The notes under the pieces: model-generated | Seen by the model: the letters and a program-made list of their open reading frames with translations, nothing else | What the model was told of the DNA's origin: nothing | The model's database searches: none | Made by a program: the position numbers and the translations under genes | Source of the DNA: Actinokineospora inagensis DSM 44258 | GTDB taxonomy: Bacteria; Actinomycetota; Actinomycetes; Mycobacteriales; Pseudonocardiaceae | Assembly: GCF_000482865.1 (NCBI RefSeq) | Contig: NZ_KI519517.1 | Span: 64,548 to 128,547, forward strand | Direction of reading: 5' to 3' | DNA length: 64,000 nucleotides | Part shown: in pieces, positions 948 through 59,045 of the stretch | How positions within the stretch are numbered: the first letter of the stretch is position 1 | How the letters are laid out: every line of letters begins with the position of its first letter

Positions 948-1403
948 ACTTCTTGACCAGCAGGTTTAGAGCGGCCAGTGCCCATTCTCATTCACTTTCA
1001 CCGCTCGACTCCACACCCTGCCCATGATCCCACAGCCCCACGACAACCAGCCGGACTATCGCCTCCAAGGCCAGCGTGTCCCGTGTATCAGCCCGCCACG
1101 GCGTGCACCGGCAGAGGATCCCGCCCACCCCGGTGCCTGCCGGCGCCCAAGTCCAGGCTCCGGATCGGACCCAGTCAGCGCCCAACTGCTGTGCCTCACC
1201 GATAGAACCCGGATCCGCCTGGAGCCCTCCGTGAACCCACCCAAAACCCCTTGCCGCCAGCCCCACACCCCCCTACAGGCGGCCCCCACCCTCTCCGGGG
1301 GCAGCCCTCGATGCCAGTCTACCGGCAGGCACCGACAGTGGATCTTGATCCAAGCCCCGGAGAGTCCCTCCTGTGGATAACTTCCGTCGCCCAGGTGGGT
1401 GAC
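948..1403 (-). promoter_or_regulatory. CRISPR array 1 leader with promoter-like element
   Basis: This segment is the inverted counterpart of 7084-7541. About the first 100 bp next to the array and the last ~160 bp are almost identical between the two copies; the middle (roughly 1060-1240) is diverged. Read on the minus strand it contains a TTATCCACA DnaA-like box (1372-1380), a TGTCGGTG...GGTAGACTGG core (TAGACT at 1316-1321) and a GCCCCC/GGGGGC hairpin, then the array-proximal leader. Position and conservation support a leader role. That the core acts as the crRNA promoter is inference. Confidence 0.8.
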
Positions 1404-2683: not shown

Positions 2684-3045
2684 TAGCTCACCCCCTCGAC
2701 GTTGCTTTGGCCCATGCCAAGGCGGACGTACTTCTACAACGCGGCCAAGGGCGTTGTGCGCAGGTCCGGACACGGCCAACGTTCGAGCCACGGACTCACA
2801 CAATTCACCCATGACGCTCATCCAGTAACACCACCGGGCGACCCCAGCGGGTCTGCGGCATGCTGGATCAAGATCATCTGGTACCCGGGCGCCCACCCAC
2901 CCGGGGGCCGGGGGCCCATTCCTGAGCCTATCGAGGAAGGCGGCTTGTCAAGGGCGGTTGGCGATGGCTGGGGATGCTTCGCGCCGTTGTGGACAACTCG
3001 GGCGGGGCGATTGGTGAGGCTGGTTGAAGCGGTGTGTCGCGGGGG
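2684..3045. other. Intergenic region between convergent genes
   Basis: This gap lies between the SGNH hydrolase and the last gene of the ABC operon. I see no coding frame with convincing codon use and no clean terminator. A GATCAAGATC palindrome (2866-2875) followed by a G/C block (2883-2918) recalls part of the promoter-like element in the two CRISPR leaders, where GATCAAGATC also occurs, but the rest of the core is missing. Confidence 0.5.
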
Positions 3046-7083: not shown

Positions 7084-7541
7084 TGTCACCCGCCTGGGCG
7101 ACGGAAGTTATCCACAGGAGGGGCTCTCCGGGGCTTGGATCAAGATCCACTGTCGGTGCCTGCCGGTAGACTGGCATCGAGGGCTGCCCCCGGAGAGGGT
7201 GGGGGCCGCCTGTAGGGGGGTGTGGGGTTGGCGGCAAGTGGTTTTTGGAGGTTTCGCGAAGGGCCGGGGCATTGATCCGGGTTTGTTGGTGAGGCGCCGG
7301 TGTGGGGTGCTGATTGGGTCGACTCCGGAGCCTGGCCCCTGGGTGTCGTCGGCTGGGTATCGGGGTGGGGTCGTTTGCTGTTTGCGTTTCGTGGTGGGTT
7401 GATGCACGGCACGCTGGTGGTCTTGGGTCGATGGCTGGCTGGTTGTCGTGGGGCTGTGGGATCATGGGCAGGGTGTGGGGTCGAGCGGTGAAAGTGAATG
7501 AGAATGGGCACTGGCTGCTCTAAACCTGCTGGTCAAGAAGT
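7084..7541 (+). promoter_or_regulatory. CRISPR array 2 leader with promoter-like element
   Basis: This is the inverted copy of 948-1403. It contains a TTATCCACA box (7107-7115), the TGTCGGTG...GGTAGACTGG core (TAGACT at 7167-7172), the GCCCCC/GGGGGC hairpin and, next to the array, about 100 bp that differ from the other leader at only a couple of positions. The core lies roughly 370 bp from the first repeat, so any transcript starting there would carry a long leader before the first crRNA. Confidence 0.8.
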
Positions 7542-24922: not shown

Positions 24923-25040
24923 TTGTCCACACTCCGGCCTGCAGTCCACAGGCTCCAGCGCTGACCCCTGTCGATCTTGGGCAGCCGGTAGACTGGCCTC
25001 GGGGACGCCCCCCGGGAAGGGTGGGGGCCGCCCGGGGGTG
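24923..25040 (+). repeat. Recurrent intergenic element, copy A
   Basis: Order: TTGTCCACA box (24923-24931), a second weaker box (24942-24950), TGTCGATCTT, GGTAGACTGG (TAGACT 24989-24994) and a strong hairpin in which CCCCCGGG pairs with CCCGGGGG. From CCGGTAGACTGG onward about 55 bp are identical to copies at 38274 and 45386, far above what non-coding DNA should keep by chance. Promoter-like function is inferred. Confidence 0.85.
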
Positions 25041-25384
25041 GGTTTGGGCTGGTGGGTGGGGATTTCGAGTAGGTGTGGTGGTCTGTTGTTGTGGCGGGCG
25101 TGGTGTTTGTGGTGGTGTCGGTCGGGGGTGCGGCGCTGAGGGCGGGGTTGCGGGGGCGTCGGTGAGGCATGGCGGTGGTCGCCGCGATGGGGCGGCCTGG
25201 TGGGCGCGTGACCGCCGTCATGGTCGACGTTGGTGCGGGCGCGGGTCGTGGATTGATCACCCGTGCTGGATGGCCGCGCAGGTCAATGGCGTGTTCGGGG
25301 TCGAGCGGACCCGGGCGGCAGAGATGGCCGGGGGATGCGACGGTGGGCATCCTGACCGTGAAGGGTGGGAGAAGTCGGCACAGG
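25041..25384. other. Non-coding G/T-rich tail downstream of element copy A
   Basis: No gene is supported. The first part is G/T-rich, as in the tails of the copies at 38396 and 45511. The frames that stay open here lack the codon bias of real genes. Confidence 0.5.
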
Positions 25385-38273: not shown

Positions 38274-38395
38274 TTGTCCACATCTCGATGGGCTGTCCAC
38301 AGCCCATGGTGCGGCCCCCTGTCGATCTTGCCCGGCCGGTAGACTGGCCTCGGGGACGCCCCCCGGGAAGGGTGGGGGCCGCCCGGGGGTGGGTT
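38274..38395 (+). repeat. Recurrent intergenic element, copy B
   Basis: Two DnaA-like boxes (TTGTCCACA 38274-38282 and CTGTCCACA 38293-38301), then TGTCGATCTT, GGTAGACTGG (TAGACT 38340-38345) and the GC hairpin, identical to copy A over about 55 bp. It also shares about 100 bp of diverged tail with copy C, including GTGCTTGTCCCA. The rest of 37937-38563 shows no gene. Confidence 0.85.
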
Positions 38396-38563
38396 GGTGT
38401 TGGTGGGGTGGGTTTCGCGGGGTTGTCTGGGTGGCGTGGCATGGTGGGTGGGGTGCTTGTCCCAGTGAGTCCGCGCGGCGCGTTCGCGGCTTGGGGTTGG
38501 GTCGGGGTTGAGCGGCGGGTACTGGAAGGTCGGGCCGACCGGGTTGGGCGTTAGGGTTTTCGG

Positions 38564-45385: not shown

Positions 45386-45510
45386 TTGTCCACATCTCGA
45401 TGGGCTGTCCACAGCCCACGGCGCGACCCCCTGTCGATCTTGCCCGGCCGGTAGACTGGCCTCGGGGACGCCCCCCGGGAAGGGTGGGGGCCGCCCGGGG
45501 GCGGGTTGGT
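45386..45510 (+). repeat. Recurrent intergenic element, copy C
   Basis: TTGTCCACA (45386-45394) and CTGTCCACA (45405-45413) are followed by TGTCGATCTT, GGTAGACTGG (TAGACT 45452-45457) and the hairpin, near-identical to copies A and B. The flanks 45262-45385 and 45511-45728 contain no gene; the downstream tail is similar to that of copy B. Confidence 0.85.
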
Positions 45511-45728
45511 GCTGGCGGGTGTGGGCTGGGGTGGAGTCGGTTTGTGCTGGTGGGGTGGGGGATTTCGCAGGGTTGCCTTGGTGGGCGCGGCGTGCTGGGT
45601 GGCGTGCTTGTCCCATTGAGTCCGCGGCGCGTTTGTGGCTTGGTTTCGGATCGGGGTGGTCGAAACAAGCCTGAGTCTGGTGAGTGCCGCGGAAGGTGGG
45701 CGTCTCGTGGGCAAGGGGGTGGGTGTGG

Positions 45729-49181: not shown

Positions 49182-50114
49182 GTGGCCACCCTGCGCGCGA
49201 CTCGGCACGCTGACGCGTTCACCGGGCGGCACGTGCTGTCCATGGGTGACTACCACCCGCGGGACCTGGACCTGCTGTTCCGCACCGCCGACGAGACGCG
49301 CTCCGACCTGGCGAGCGGCCGTGACCACCGGCCGCTCGCCGGTCGGCTGCTCATGTCGGCGTTCTTCGACAAGAGCACCCGGACCCGGCTGGCGCACGAG
49401 ACCGCGATGATCCGCCTCGGCGGCACCGTGGCGGGTTTCGCCGACGCCACCGTCACCCGCGCGGGCGGCACCACCCAGGAGAGCGACGACGACATCGCCC
49501 GGATGGTCTCCCTCTACGGCGACGTCGTCGTCGTCCGCCACCCGGAGACCGGCTGGCCCGCGCACGCGGCGTCGCTGAGCGAGGCCGCGATGGTCATCAA
49601 CGGCGGCGACGGCGTCGGTGAGCACCCGACCCAGACGATGGTCGACCTCTACACCATGCACCGCCGCTTCGGCGGGCTGGACGGCCTGCGCATCCTCATC
49701 CTGAACGACCTCCGGATGCGCTGCGTCCGGTCCCTGCTGCTCGGCCTGCGCCACTTCGACTGCACCGTCTACGGCCTGAGTGCTTCCGGCAAGGACGCCG
49801 CCGCCCTGCCCGAGGGCGTCCCGCCCATCCACACCGGCCGCGACCTGGACTCCCTGCTGTCCGAAGTGGACATCGTGTACTCGTCGCCGACGGTGGCCGC
49901 CGAACGGCCGGAGGACTCGCTGGACCGGGTCACCCTCAACCGCGACCTGCTGCGCAGGCACAGCGGCCACGACATCACCGTGATGCACCCGTTGCCCCGC
50001 AAGGGTGAGGTCGACACGGACCTGGACGACACGAGGTTCGCGGGCTACTGGGAACAAGCCGACAACGGCGTCCCGGTCCGCATGGCCCTGCTCCGCCTGA
50101 TGTTCGGCTGCTGA
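49182..50114 (+). CDS. Aspartate carbamoyltransferase paralogue
   Basis: The 310-aa protein matches PyrB closely: carbamoyl-phosphate site FFDKSTRTR (about 60-68), GDGVGEHPTQTMVDLYT (about 142-158) and HPLPRKGEVDTDLDD near 269, then NGVPVRMALL. The 80s loop, which in PyrB supplies Ser and Lys to the neighbouring active site (KGE motif), reads TRAGGTTQES and has no lysine. This suggests a different acceptor or altered catalysis, not housekeeping pyrimidine synthesis. It starts immediately after the E1-like stop. Confidence 0.88.
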   Translation: MATLRATRHADAFTGRHVLSMGDYHPRDLDLLFRTADETRSDLASGRDHRPLAGRLLMSAFFDKSTRTRLAHETAMIRLGGTVAGFADATVTRAGGTTQESDDDIARMVSLYGDVVVVRHPETGWPAHAASLSEAAMVINGGDGVGEHPTQTMVDLYTMHRRFGGLDGLRILILNDLRMRCVRSLLLGLRHFDCTVYGLSASGKDAAALPEGVPPIHTGRDLDSLLSEVDIVYSSPTVAAERPEDSLDRVTLNRDLLRRHSGHDITVMHPLPRKGEVDTDLDDTRFAGYWEQADNGVPVRMALLRLMFGC

Positions 50115-50134
50115 ACCGCTGGGAACATCTCGGA

Positions 50135-50163
50135 AACCCGACGACCGACCCGGTCGTCGGGTT
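50135..50163 (+). terminator. Terminator of the E1-like/carbamoyltransferase operon
   Basis: A perfect 12-bp stem (50135-50146 with 50152-50163, arm AACCCGACGACC) and a 5-nt loop lie 20 bp after the stop codon. Confidence 0.75.
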
Positions 50164-50180
50164 CCGCGTGTCTGGACCCC

Positions 50181-50226
50181 GCCGTTCTGAGCAGCCCCCG
50201 AATCCAGCCTACCGACCCGCACCGAC
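50181..50226 (-). repeat. Left arm of 46-bp inverted repeat around DnaA-box cluster
   Basis: Pairs with 50632-50677 (44 of 46 positions). Read outward (minus strand) it contains GTCGGT, GGTAGGCTGG and a G-rich block, that is, the core of the recurrent intergenic element. Confidence 0.85.
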
Positions 50227-50270
50227 GGAAACCCGCGGCTCCAGGCTGGCCTGTGCGCTGATCCACCAGT

Positions 50271-50606
50271 TGTGGACAACGAACCCTCACTCGCGTGCAC
50301 TACGCACCCGCTTGTGTGGGCAAGGGGTCCCCACTCGTTGTGGATAACCGACCCCCACTCATGCGGACAACGGACCCCCACTCGTCGTGGACAACGGACC
50401 CGCTCGTGTGGGCAGCAGACCCCCACGCGTTTGGGGGCAACAGCCCTCCGCTCGTTGTGGACAACGGCCACACTCGCGTGCACAACGGACTGCTGTGTGG
50501 ATAACGGATCCCCACTCGTCGCGGACAACAGCCCCATTCGTTGTGGACAATGGGTCCTCACTCCGAGTGGATCCACGACAGCCCACAACCGATGGGCTTG
50601 TCCACA
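50271..50606. repeat. Cluster of DnaA-box-like sites
   Basis: Six perfect boxes: TGTGGACAA at 50271, 50456 and 50542; TGTGGATAA at 50339 and 50496; TTGTCCACA at 50598. At least four one- or two-mismatch boxes lie at 50315, 50362, 50386 and 50520. They sit in a loose tandem unit resembling CCCACTCGTTGTGGACAACGG. TTGTCCACA is the preferred actinobacterial DnaA box. No gene is supported in the interval. DnaA binding is inferred. Confidence 0.75.
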
Positions 50607-50631
50607 GCCCCTCCTGGAGCGTGGGGTTTTC

Positions 50632-50677
50632 GTCGGTGTCGGTCGGTAGGCTGGATTCGGGGGCTGCTCAGAACGGC
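50632..50677 (+). repeat. Right arm of 46-bp inverted repeat around DnaA-box cluster
   Basis: Near-perfect inverse of 50181-50226, facing outward to the right, with GGTAGGCTGG as a possible -10 region. It follows the last TTGTCCACA box by 25 bp. Confidence 0.85.
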
Positions 50678-50700
50678 ACGCTCAGCCTGGCCGGACAGGT

Positions 50701-50734
50701 GACAACGCCCCGGCGAGGGCACCGGGGCGTTGTC
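50701..50734 (-). terminator. Terminator of the GNAT-PurU operon
   Basis: A perfect 13-bp stem (50701-50713 with 50722-50734, arm GACAACGCCCCGG) and an 8-nt loop lie 10 bp beyond the GNAT stop. Confidence 0.8.
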
Positions 50735-50744
50735 GGGGGGAAGG

Positions 50745-51371
50745 TCAGTTGTACAGCGGCTTGGTCATGGTGATCGACGGGTAGGGGCCGTTGTCGGTGG
50801 GGGCGTCCACGTGGGTGACCTCGTAGCCGAGTTTGGCGTAGAAGTGTTGGGCGGGGTTGCCGTTGAGGACCTGCAGGGTGGCCGAGTCCTTCCCGGCCAG
50901 GCGGGCCTTTTCCTCCAGCACGGCCACCACGTGCGCACCCGCGCCGAGCTGGCGGGCCTCGCGGTCGACGACGATGCTGTGCAGTTGGGCCTCGCCCGCG
51001 GCCAGGGGGGTGATGAGCGCCCCCATGAGCCTGCGCATGCCGTTCAGGAAACGGGTGCCGTCGCGCGGGCCGAGGAGGTCTCGGGCGTCCGCCGCGATCG
51101 TGTCGTACCAGAGGTTGACGCGGGGGTGTTGGCGGGTGGCGATGGCGCCGATGGCGACCGGGGTGCCCGCGTCCTCGACGACGACCATGCCCTCGATCGC
51201 GGCGGGGGCTTGTTCGCGCAGGGCGCGGTGGACCAGGAGCTCGTTGGGCTCGGTGTCCCCGTTGATCATGCCGGGGGCTTCCTCGCGGTAGAGCTGGGTG
51301 AGCATTCCGGCGATGCGGGGGACGTCCCGCGAGTCGGCGGGCTTGTGCGCGATGTCGAGTTGCTGGGTCAT
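50745..51371 (-). CDS. GNAT family N-acetyltransferase
   Basis: The 208-aa protein shows GNAT features: LHSIVVDREARQLGAGAHVVAVLEEKA (acetyl-CoA loop with a QLGAGA-type pattern) and NPAQHFYAKLGYEV near the end. It transfers an acyl group from acyl-CoA to an unknown amine. It is 11 bp downstream of purU on the same strand, so probably one transcript. Confidence 0.87.
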   Translation of the reverse strand: MTQQLDIAHKPADSRDVPRIAGMLTQLYREEAPGMINGDTEPNELLVHRALREQAPAAIEGMVVVEDAGTPVAIGAIATRQHPRVNLWYDTIAADARDLLGPRDGTRFLNGMRRLMGALITPLAAGEAQLHSIVVDREARQLGAGAHVVAVLEEKARLAGKDSATLQVLNGNPAQHFYAKLGYEVTHVDAPTDNGPYPSITMTKPLYN

Positions 51372-58488: not shown

Positions 58489-58637
58489 GCCCGTTGTGGT
58501 GAAGTTGTTTTGTTTGGGGGGAGCGGTGGCCTAAGCCGGCTGGCGGGTAAGGCCACGCTTTCCAGTGGCCCCGCCTTTTAGCCTTACCTGAGGCTGCCGC
58601 TAGGGGCCCCAAACAAAACAACTTCACCACAACGGGC
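58489..58637. repeat. MITE-like palindromic element with 31-bp perfect inverted ends
   Basis: The ends 58489-58519 and 58607-58637 are perfect inverted copies (GCCCGTTGTGGTGAAG then TTGTTTTGTTTGGGG), enclosing 87 bp that itself contains a GTGGCCT/AGGCCAC hairpin. The arms are AT-rich for this genome. No coding capacity and no obvious flanking target-site duplication, but the form fits a non-autonomous mobile element or a large structured RNA. Confidence 0.8.
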
Positions 58638-58734: not shown

Positions 58735-58932
58735 GATCAACCGAGAACAAAGCCCCCAAATACACAGCCTAAACGACCCCACCGACAAGAACACCCAGCC
58801 GACCAAGACCCATGATCAACCCGACGAAAGCCCCCGAATACACAGCCTAGCGACGACCACCGACAGCCCACGCGATCACGTCCGCGATCCATGATCAACC
58901 CGATGCGAAGCCCCAAATACACAGCCTAGACC
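58735..58932. repeat. 79-bp tandem repeat, 2.5 units
   Basis: GATCAACC occurs at 58735, 58814 and 58893 (exact 79-bp period), each followed by AAGCCCC and AATACACAGCCTA. The third unit is partial. On the minus strand each carries TAGGCTGTGTATT. No frame is coding. Confidence 0.8.
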
Positions 58933-59045
58933 GACCCACCGACACCCCCCACCAACCACCACGCACCCACCCCGCACCGGAACTCTCACGCTAGCCGAGC
59001 GGATCTCTCATCGAACCTTCATCCGCGTTCGGCACCGTAGGCAAC

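Follow-up and report, generated by a model that had tools for sequence, protein, structure and literature searches.

The locus at positions 50181-50677 of the window, by which we mean the whole 64,000-nucleotide stretch of DNA that was analyzed (C2:64548-128547, 70.8% GC, in a genome of 7.28 Mb and 97 contigs), sits between two convergent genes that encode a carbamoyltransferase-family protein and a GNAT acetyltransferase (Table 1). The cluster of DnaA boxes that an earlier note had described here is real: six exact TTRTCCACA boxes fall within 350 bp where 0.009 are expected, and nine are found when one mismatch is allowed (0.23 expected). The expected values are means over 2000 composition-matched sequences simulated with a first-order Markov model, among which the maxima were one exact box and three boxes at up to one mismatch. 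At least four near-perfect boxes had been claimed in addition to the exact ones, and at the one-mismatch definition we count three. As proposed, the boxes do lie within a degenerate tandem repeat, which has nine copies (67-100%) of a unit of about 24 bp, and the inverted-repeat arms agree at 44 of 46 positions, with a weaker symmetry that extends to 95 bp at 82%. The flanks had been called unusual; their symmetry is genuine, and they are two outward, promoter-like copies of a dispersed repeat family. The densest 350 bp in exact boxes among 105 sources from this genome (372,131 bases with overlaps counted, many of them chosen for boxes) is the locus itself, present there as L023, with six against five for the runner-up.

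Both arms carry a putative TAnnnT-type -10 hexamer (TAGGCT) at the distance found in their class, and each has an exact box at one of two operator positions only, the partner being degenerate. A consensus scan of the locus returned neither a sigma-70 promoter nor a U-tract terminator, and the -10 reading comes from conservation in the repeat family and at the competence gene comEA rather than from that scan. The locus has no match in the phage and plasmid collections, and the Rfam 15 covariance models gave 0 matches up to E 1 in the interval 49900-50900 and nothing credible in 20 sources from the same genome, where two matches scored far under the gathering scores.

Two short RNAs are predicted to leave the arms, with starts placed 7 nt after each -10 (near 50199 on the minus strand and 50659 on the plus strand). 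No U-tract terminator was found at their ends. For two starts of B-type elements (described below), the folds were no better than those of shuffles. Both predicted RNAs would end short of the neighboring gene ends unless there were readthrough, so that an influence on these genes is at most possible. The carbamoyltransferase-family neighbor was matched at E ≤ 1e-40 in 1 of 16 genomes of the genus, its own, which makes conservation of the locus as a whole unlikely; a protein-guided search of named genomes returned two distant loci.

Table 1. Features of the locus and of related elements in the window
Feature	Position	Strand	Details
Left neighbor, aspartate/ornithine carbamoyltransferase family	49182..50114	+	PF02729/PF00185; 3' end towards element
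Predicted short RNA, ~70 nt	50126..50199	-	Ends in 50135-50163 hairpin (inverted repeat); fold -38.0 kcal/mol, z -2.5
Left arm, outward C1 core	50181..50226	-	Putative -10 TAGGCT at 50206-50211, then GGATTC + GGGGGCTGCTCAG; core 0 mismatches
RecA-NDp/PafBC-like motif CGTCGGTG-N8-TAGGCT	50206..50227	-	Pattern match
Degenerate tandem array, ~24 bp unit (GTTGTGGACAACGGACCCCCACTC-like)	50269..50563	.	Nine copies
Exact DnaA box, box-1 position	50271..50279	-	68 bp upstream of left -10; box-2 position degenerate (CAGCGCACA)
One-mismatch box, central array	50315..50323	-	Pattern match
Exact box (TTATCCACA), central array	50339..50347	-	Pattern match
One-mismatch box, central array	50362..50370	-	Pattern match
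One-mismatch box, central array	50386..50394	-	Pattern match
Exact box, central array	50456..50464	-	Pattern match
Exact box (TTATCCACA), central array	50496..50504	-	Pattern match
Exact box, central array	50542..50550	-	Pattern match
Exact DnaA box, box-2 position	50598..50606	+	49 bp upstream of right -10; box-1 position degenerate (CAGCCCACA)
RecA-NDp/PafBC-like motif CGTCGGTG-N8-TAGGCT	50631..50652	+	Pattern match
Right arm, outward C1 core	50632..50677	+	Putative -10 TAGGCT at 50647-50652; core 0 mismatches
Predicted short RNA, ~80 nt	50659..50742	+	Ends in 50701-50734 hairpin (inverted repeat); fold -44.9 kcal/mol, z -2.6
Right neighbor, GNAT acetyltransferase	50745..51371	-	PF00583; 3' end towards element
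A-type element	2925..2996	-	TTGTCCACA box, TTGACA -35, TAGGCT -10
B-type element, twin boxes	24923..25056	+	-10 TAGACT, GC-rich start
B-type element, twin boxes	38274..38407	+	
B-type element, twin boxes	45386..45519	+	

A dispersed repeat family and its box spacing

The core of the arms recurs throughout the genome. When the locus served as a blastn query on the genome that carries it, at least 153 matches were obtained at E ≤ 1, with each arm and strand counted separately and 40 of 63 candidates scored, and among the matches listed, the hits fall on the arms and adjoining DNA with none in the middle of the array. The repeats form a dispersed, intergenic family, C1, with the -10 hexamer and a conserved GGATTCGGGGGCTGCTC. 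The core TAGGCTGGATTCGGGGGCTGCTC was found at up to five mismatches in 68 copies from the fetched loci that had at least 130 bp upstream and 60 bp downstream; in the core listing of 75 rows, four rows at five mismatches are of B type. The own-genome loci with a core at up to four mismatches, which were picked from blast and pattern hits so that the orientation counts are not whole-genome counts, form 34 groups, 16 with a single core and 18 with several, and the outermost cores of the latter point outward in 16 groups, inward in 0 and the same way in 2. Gene calls for these counts were made with a simple codon-usage finder, and by them 35 outer cores face the 3' end of a gene and 15 a 5' end, with 4 further outer cores more than 130 bp from a 3' end (n = 50 outer cores). 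Convergent genes flank 18 of the 34 groups compared with 8 of 53 neighbor pairs in the window. Two C1 cores (L040:2156 and L042:2031) lie 38 and 36 bp before the predicted starts of an MFS transporter and an ABC permease, suggesting that the core may also serve as an ordinary promoter.

Exact boxes upstream of the -10 concentrate at two positions in the 68 C1 copies, with 20 hits at 66-68 bp and 11 at 47-50 bp and peaks 67 and 48 bp from the start of the hexamer. With up to two mismatches allowed, the hits at the two positions rise to 44 and 39, compared with 0.87 for the average offset. Exact boxes are missing from both operator positions in many C1 copies. Two other element families, which have quite different start sequences, show a box geometry nearly equal to that of C1: the peaks lie at 67 and 48 bp in the A family (15 copies), which has a TTGACA -35, and at 66 and 47 bp in the B family (18 copies). 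We take all three families to be non-coding, and this putative promoter geometry is common to them. Of the 54 predicted genes of the window, one has a twin box within 400 bp upstream, and the box there belongs to a B element.

Further B-type elements at 1299-1380 (minus strand) and 7108-7230 (plus strand) lie 375 and 376 bp upstream of both CRISPR arrays of the window and point at them, and another, at L061:1453, lies 207 bp upstream of a CRISPR array and points at it. This placement raises the possibility that CRISPR arrays are transcribed under the same control as DNA uptake. A CRISPR leader was rejected as the parent of the element, given that CRISPR repeats lie within 900 nt of only 3 of 42 B elements in the DNA examined. 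A-type-like elements at L021:833-1050 include one with a triple box (three TTGTCCACA in 19-bp steps), and words like GTTGATCTTG recur in dispersed C1, B and class-3 elements.

Within the genus, the exact core pattern was found in 5 of 16 genomes, with 41 copies in the genome that carries the locus and 6, 6, 3 and 2 in the others. We read 17 C1 loci in these four relatives, 14 of them distinct, and exact boxes are present in 8 of the 14 and absent in 6. At L064, L069, L074 and L084, units are arrayed at a spacing of mostly 110-190 bp, and some other loci are single. Two cores face inward at L075 and all cores point one way at L074 and L082, so that outward pairing is not general. The box TTGTCCACA occurs 66 to 573 times per genus genome (control, 13 to 37). 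The patchy copy numbers suggest that the element body undergoes expansion and loss and that the operator at comEA and ssd persists.

Twin boxes upstream of comEA and ssd

Of 120 genomes examined in the bacterial family, 77 contain an exact twin box with an N10 spacer, and the reversed-pattern control gave 0 in each. In a sample of 60 genomes of the family, Ssd (TIGR03815, the actinobacterial CpaE homologue) scored above cut-off in 59, and a ComEA-like match (TIGR01259) was obtained in all 60, each under the curated cut-off. One ssd and one comEA region per genome were then compared in 59 genomes; G026 (74% complete, partial matches), the second ssd copy of G020 and the region L303 (215 bp, too short) were set aside, and L217 was kept as a shortened region with an assumed match position. 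A box pair (18-20 bp apart, at most two mismatches in total) lies upstream of ssd in 49 of 58 regions and upstream of comEA in 43 of 59, and the opposite strand of the two sets of regions held 0 pairs in 80,709 and 87,585 bases. Nine ssd and 16 comEA regions have no pair, and five in each set have one exact box. In the genome that carries the locus, comEA has a twin box with two mismatches and ssd has one exact box and no pair.

The spacing at comEA follows that of the dispersed elements, with a TANNNT hexamer 65-68 bp from box 1 in 42 of 43 paired regions. An in-frame start codon at +80 or +81 is present in 21 of 24 paired comEA loci, and the mRNA could thus be leaderless. At ssd, TANNNT at 60-80 bp was found in none of the 49 paired regions, and the corresponding offset is occupied by AC.GT 31 times in 50. 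Among the 27 paired ssd promoters of the set L165-L194, 15 have a motif that contains GATC (TTGATC, TCGATC or TGGATC, frequently with TTG or ATG behind it) no more than 11 nt past box 2, and this may be a partner site.

The genes that follow twin boxes look like a competence regulon. All four comEA loci tested have a comEC-type protein (PF03772) encoded next, and the single ssd locus tested (five loci inspected, one clear frame scanned) continues with a T2SSE ATPase. Among 30 loci from the exact twin-box search, the 12 clearest downstream proteins that were scanned included ComEA (L142, L161), Ssd (L145, L158), YraN, DUF4192 and M23 peptidases; other loci among the 30 resemble B-type elements. 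Four more genomes (G073, G101, G049 and G046) contributed 20 exact-pair loci, selected from a larger number of pairs, and the ten proteins scanned there comprised two SSB, one YraN, one DUF4192, two M23 peptidases, a SAF/RcpC (CpaB-like) pilus protein barely above cut-off and three without a family hit. Ssd recurs among these 20 loci (L255), and several others are B-type-like. ComEA-ComEC, a Tad/Flp pilus and a single-strand binding protein are what DNA uptake requires, and a Flp pilus reportedly serves transformation in an actinobacterium, to go by the title of PMC4322843. A literature search of limited reach found no published report of a twin-box operator. Exact twin boxes number 102, 101 and 66 in three genomes of other genera (G127, G016 and G044), which suggests that the expansion of box-bearing elements took place on several occasions within the bacterial family.

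The boxes themselves point to a binder. In 67 twin-box promoters with 134 boxes, chosen at up to two mismatches per pair, changes occur at position 1 (25 C), position 2 (9 C, 1 A) and position 3 (A, G, C), and positions 4-9 are TCCACA except in three single cases. The DnaA-box consensus of Streptomyces fits both this variation at positions 1-3 and the near-invariant TCCACA. A protein with DnaA domain IV (PF08299) was found exactly once in 59 of 60 genomes and was not found in the 60th, a 74%-complete assembly; the DnaA of the genome studied here has the GGRDHTTV signature and a normal domain IV. With changes mainly at positions 1-3 and DnaA the sole protein found to carry its DNA-binding domain, we consider that the twin boxes are probably bound by DnaA. 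TTGTCCACA also appears in the part of PMC4285127 used here as the high-affinity DnaA box of Mycobacterium tuberculosis and Streptomyces coelicolor. More tentatively, and with doubt outweighing confidence, we suggest that DnaA itself could be the competence activator of this actinobacterial family, acting through twin boxes at comEA, the Tad pilus, ssb, yraN and cell-wall hydrolase genes, and that the dispersed non-coding promoters, the divergent pair at 50181-50677 with its operator array included, might be part of this regulon, acting through small RNAs, antisense transcripts at gene ends or decoys.

Interpretation of the locus and competing explanations

We read the locus, with a probability of roughly 0.6, as a divergent pair of small non-coding promoter elements of the competence type with an amplified operator between them. 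The repeat family, its geometry and the sharing of that geometry with competence promoters are seen directly in the DNA. Given that the twin-box geometry is common to two other element families and to the promoters of comEA(-comEC) and ssd, the element would be a member of the competence-type (com) class, and the fixed spacing to the -10 together with the identical module at competence genes indicates gene regulation. As a group, the C1 family resembles the comEA and ssd (Tad pilus) promoters in its twin TTRTCCACA boxes 18-20 bp apart and, for comEA, in a box 1 that lies 65-68 bp from a TANNNT -10; those promoters drive protein genes, whereas the element is gene-less and aimed at 3' ends. Each arm combines a putative outward -10 (TAGGCT), its fixed discriminator and a G-rich start (GGATTC-GGGGGCTGCTC) with a single exact DnaA box, which occupies one of the class's two operator positions, about 67 and 48 bp upstream of the -10. 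A factor, likeliest DnaA, would bind the twin boxes and activate transcription, and a pair of RNAs, about 70-80 nt long, would extend outward as far as the hairpins by the 3' ends of the convergent neighbors. The central boxes may add local binding sites, either as a decoy or as a strong operator. Transcription itself, the identity of the factor, its action as an activator and not a repressor, and whatever effect the RNAs may have are what we infer from this arrangement.

A dedicated competence regulator other than DnaA could bind the twin box instead, in which case the likeness to a DnaA box would be coincidence or mimicry and the element a non-coding member of that regulon. We find this rather unlikely, given the pattern of near-invariant and variable box positions and the failure to find a second domain-IV protein in the 60 genomes, and we know of no dedicated twin-box competence regulator of such a kind. 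It would nevertheless suit the tight link of the boxes to comEA and ssd, and also to ssb and yraN, and direct repeats 18-20 bp apart are an arrangement as for a dimeric activator. Also in its favor, the oriC of this genome (L095:4233-5363, dnaA-dnaN) holds one exact and six one-mismatch boxes (7 versus 0.18 expected), and classic boxes are reported to be missing from the Kutzneria albida oriC in the portion of PMC4210621 cited here. The few exact boxes at the former and the report on the latter suggest that the dispersed boxes may serve another protein. DnaA-box clusters outside oriC are known, among them datA in Escherichia coli and others in Streptomyces, and the earlier note had raised a DnaA-titrating or replication-timing role for this one, in which the cluster would bind many DnaA molecules and lower free or ATP-bound DnaA. 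As with those clusters, the locus is indeed away from dnaA, the single match to which is at C9:107706-108191 and thus on another contig than the window (C2; contigs unordered). Identity as oriC was rejected, given that dnaA and dnaN are not adjacent and dnaA is on another contig. The density of the cluster, the match of its boxes to the actinobacterial high-affinity box (PMC4285127, in the part used here) and a DnaA with normal domain IV all fit titration. However, exact boxes number 494 genome-wide (384 TTGTCCACA and 110 TTATCCACA; reversed-pattern control, 37 and 3), so that the cluster holds about 1% of them (6/494) and has no leading share, and like elements stand at dozens of loci; a special titration or timing role is therefore unsupported. 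Many clusters across the genome had been named beforehand as evidence against such a role, and this applies in part: box-bearing elements do occur at dozens of loci, although 50181-50677 is the densest among the sources examined. The fixed -10 geometry and the presence at competence promoters are unexpected of a pure sink and set the locus, as one of many box-bearing elements, apart from datA-type clusters, and the left neighbor gene, matched in 1 of 16 genus genomes, makes conservation of the whole locus unlikely. We regard a datA-like locus as very improbable. A unique replication locus was rejected from the box numbers and the membership in a repeat family, and titration may be a side effect of all boxes of the genome together.

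The element could also be a selfish or neutral intergenic repeat of the REP, BIME or MITE kind that settles at gene ends, with the boxes as baggage or as an aid to mobility; we hold this to be unlikely, and it and the promoter reading can both be true. The patchy copy number in the genus (core in 5 of 16 genomes, 41 copies here versus 2-6), the unit arrays at several relatives' loci and the bias to convergent intergenic regions are in keeping with such a repeat. Correia (NEMIS) elements of Neisseria are described, in the portion of PMC2229807 drawn on here, as small dispersed intergenic repeats with inverted ends, putative divergent promoters and an internal IHF site. The locus resembles them in all these respects, its internal protein site being a DnaA-box array, but it is 497 bp long rather than about 107-155, and other copies of the element are single cores or mixed arrays. 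Terminal inverted repeats (44/46) are a trait of Correia and MITE elements, yet 16 of 34 core groups are single, and no direct repeat or target-site duplication (TA or other) was seen by eye in 30 bp on each side outside the arms. With REP and BIME elements, the locus shares inverted pairs in convergent intergenic regions; a REP-type palindrome was rejected, given that the core is not self-complementary (it has a direct GGCTG repeat), and promoter and operator parts are present in addition. Weighing further against a purely selfish repeat, three families with unrelated bodies have nearly equal box-to-(-10) geometry, and real genes use that geometry too. The arms might instead be DNA-damage promoters of the RecA-NDp type that give damage-induced RNAs through PafBC, with the boxes secondary. 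Both carry GTCGGTG-N8-TAGGCT, which fits what we take to be the RecA-NDp consensus (TGTCRGTG-N8-TAnnnT) except at the first base, where C stands for T, and the pattern GTCRGTG-N8-TAGNCT occurs at 118 sites genome-wide against 0 for the reversed pattern. In competent cells, DNA enters in single-stranded form. The section of PMC11804915 used here describes the recognition of a -26 motif by PafBC and its activation through single-stranded DNA, and a joint response is, as speculation, conceivable. Against this, GTCRGTG is present at the 8-bp gap in only 18 of the 68 C1 copies and 5 of the 18 B copies, and in none of the 15 A copies, the first motif base of the arms departs from the consensus, and, unlike RecA-NDp promoters, the locus has no neighbor gene downstream in sense. 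PafBC alone was rejected, given that most copies lack the motif, and damage-induced promoters seem to us quite unlikely.

The part of a 2026 paper cited here (PMC12849477) describes the switching-on of competence in Actinomycetota as little known and, for Micrococcus luteus, the signal or cascade as unidentified. The twin-box operator at comEA and ssd is a concrete site for mutation and for use as bait, and suggests a testable answer on the control of DNA uptake. If DnaA binds this operator, DNA uptake would be coupled to replication control, and the dispersed elements, with 50181-50677 among them, would be an unrecognized non-coding arm of the competence regulon. Counts of "DnaA boxes" in such genomes would then not be simply readable as counts of replication sites.

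PafBC-like units are also found elsewhere in the window and the genome. Three tandem units of the form TGTCGGTG-N8-TAGGCTGTGTATT.GGGG, 78-79 bp apart, lie at 58766-58944 on the minus strand, and many more are present genome-wide; in the fetched loci very few such units have a sense gene within reach. Downstream of the tandem units, at about 58490-58637 of the window, lies a long MITE-like inverted repeat (CCCGTTGTGGTGAAGTTGTTTTGTTTGGGG and its complement).
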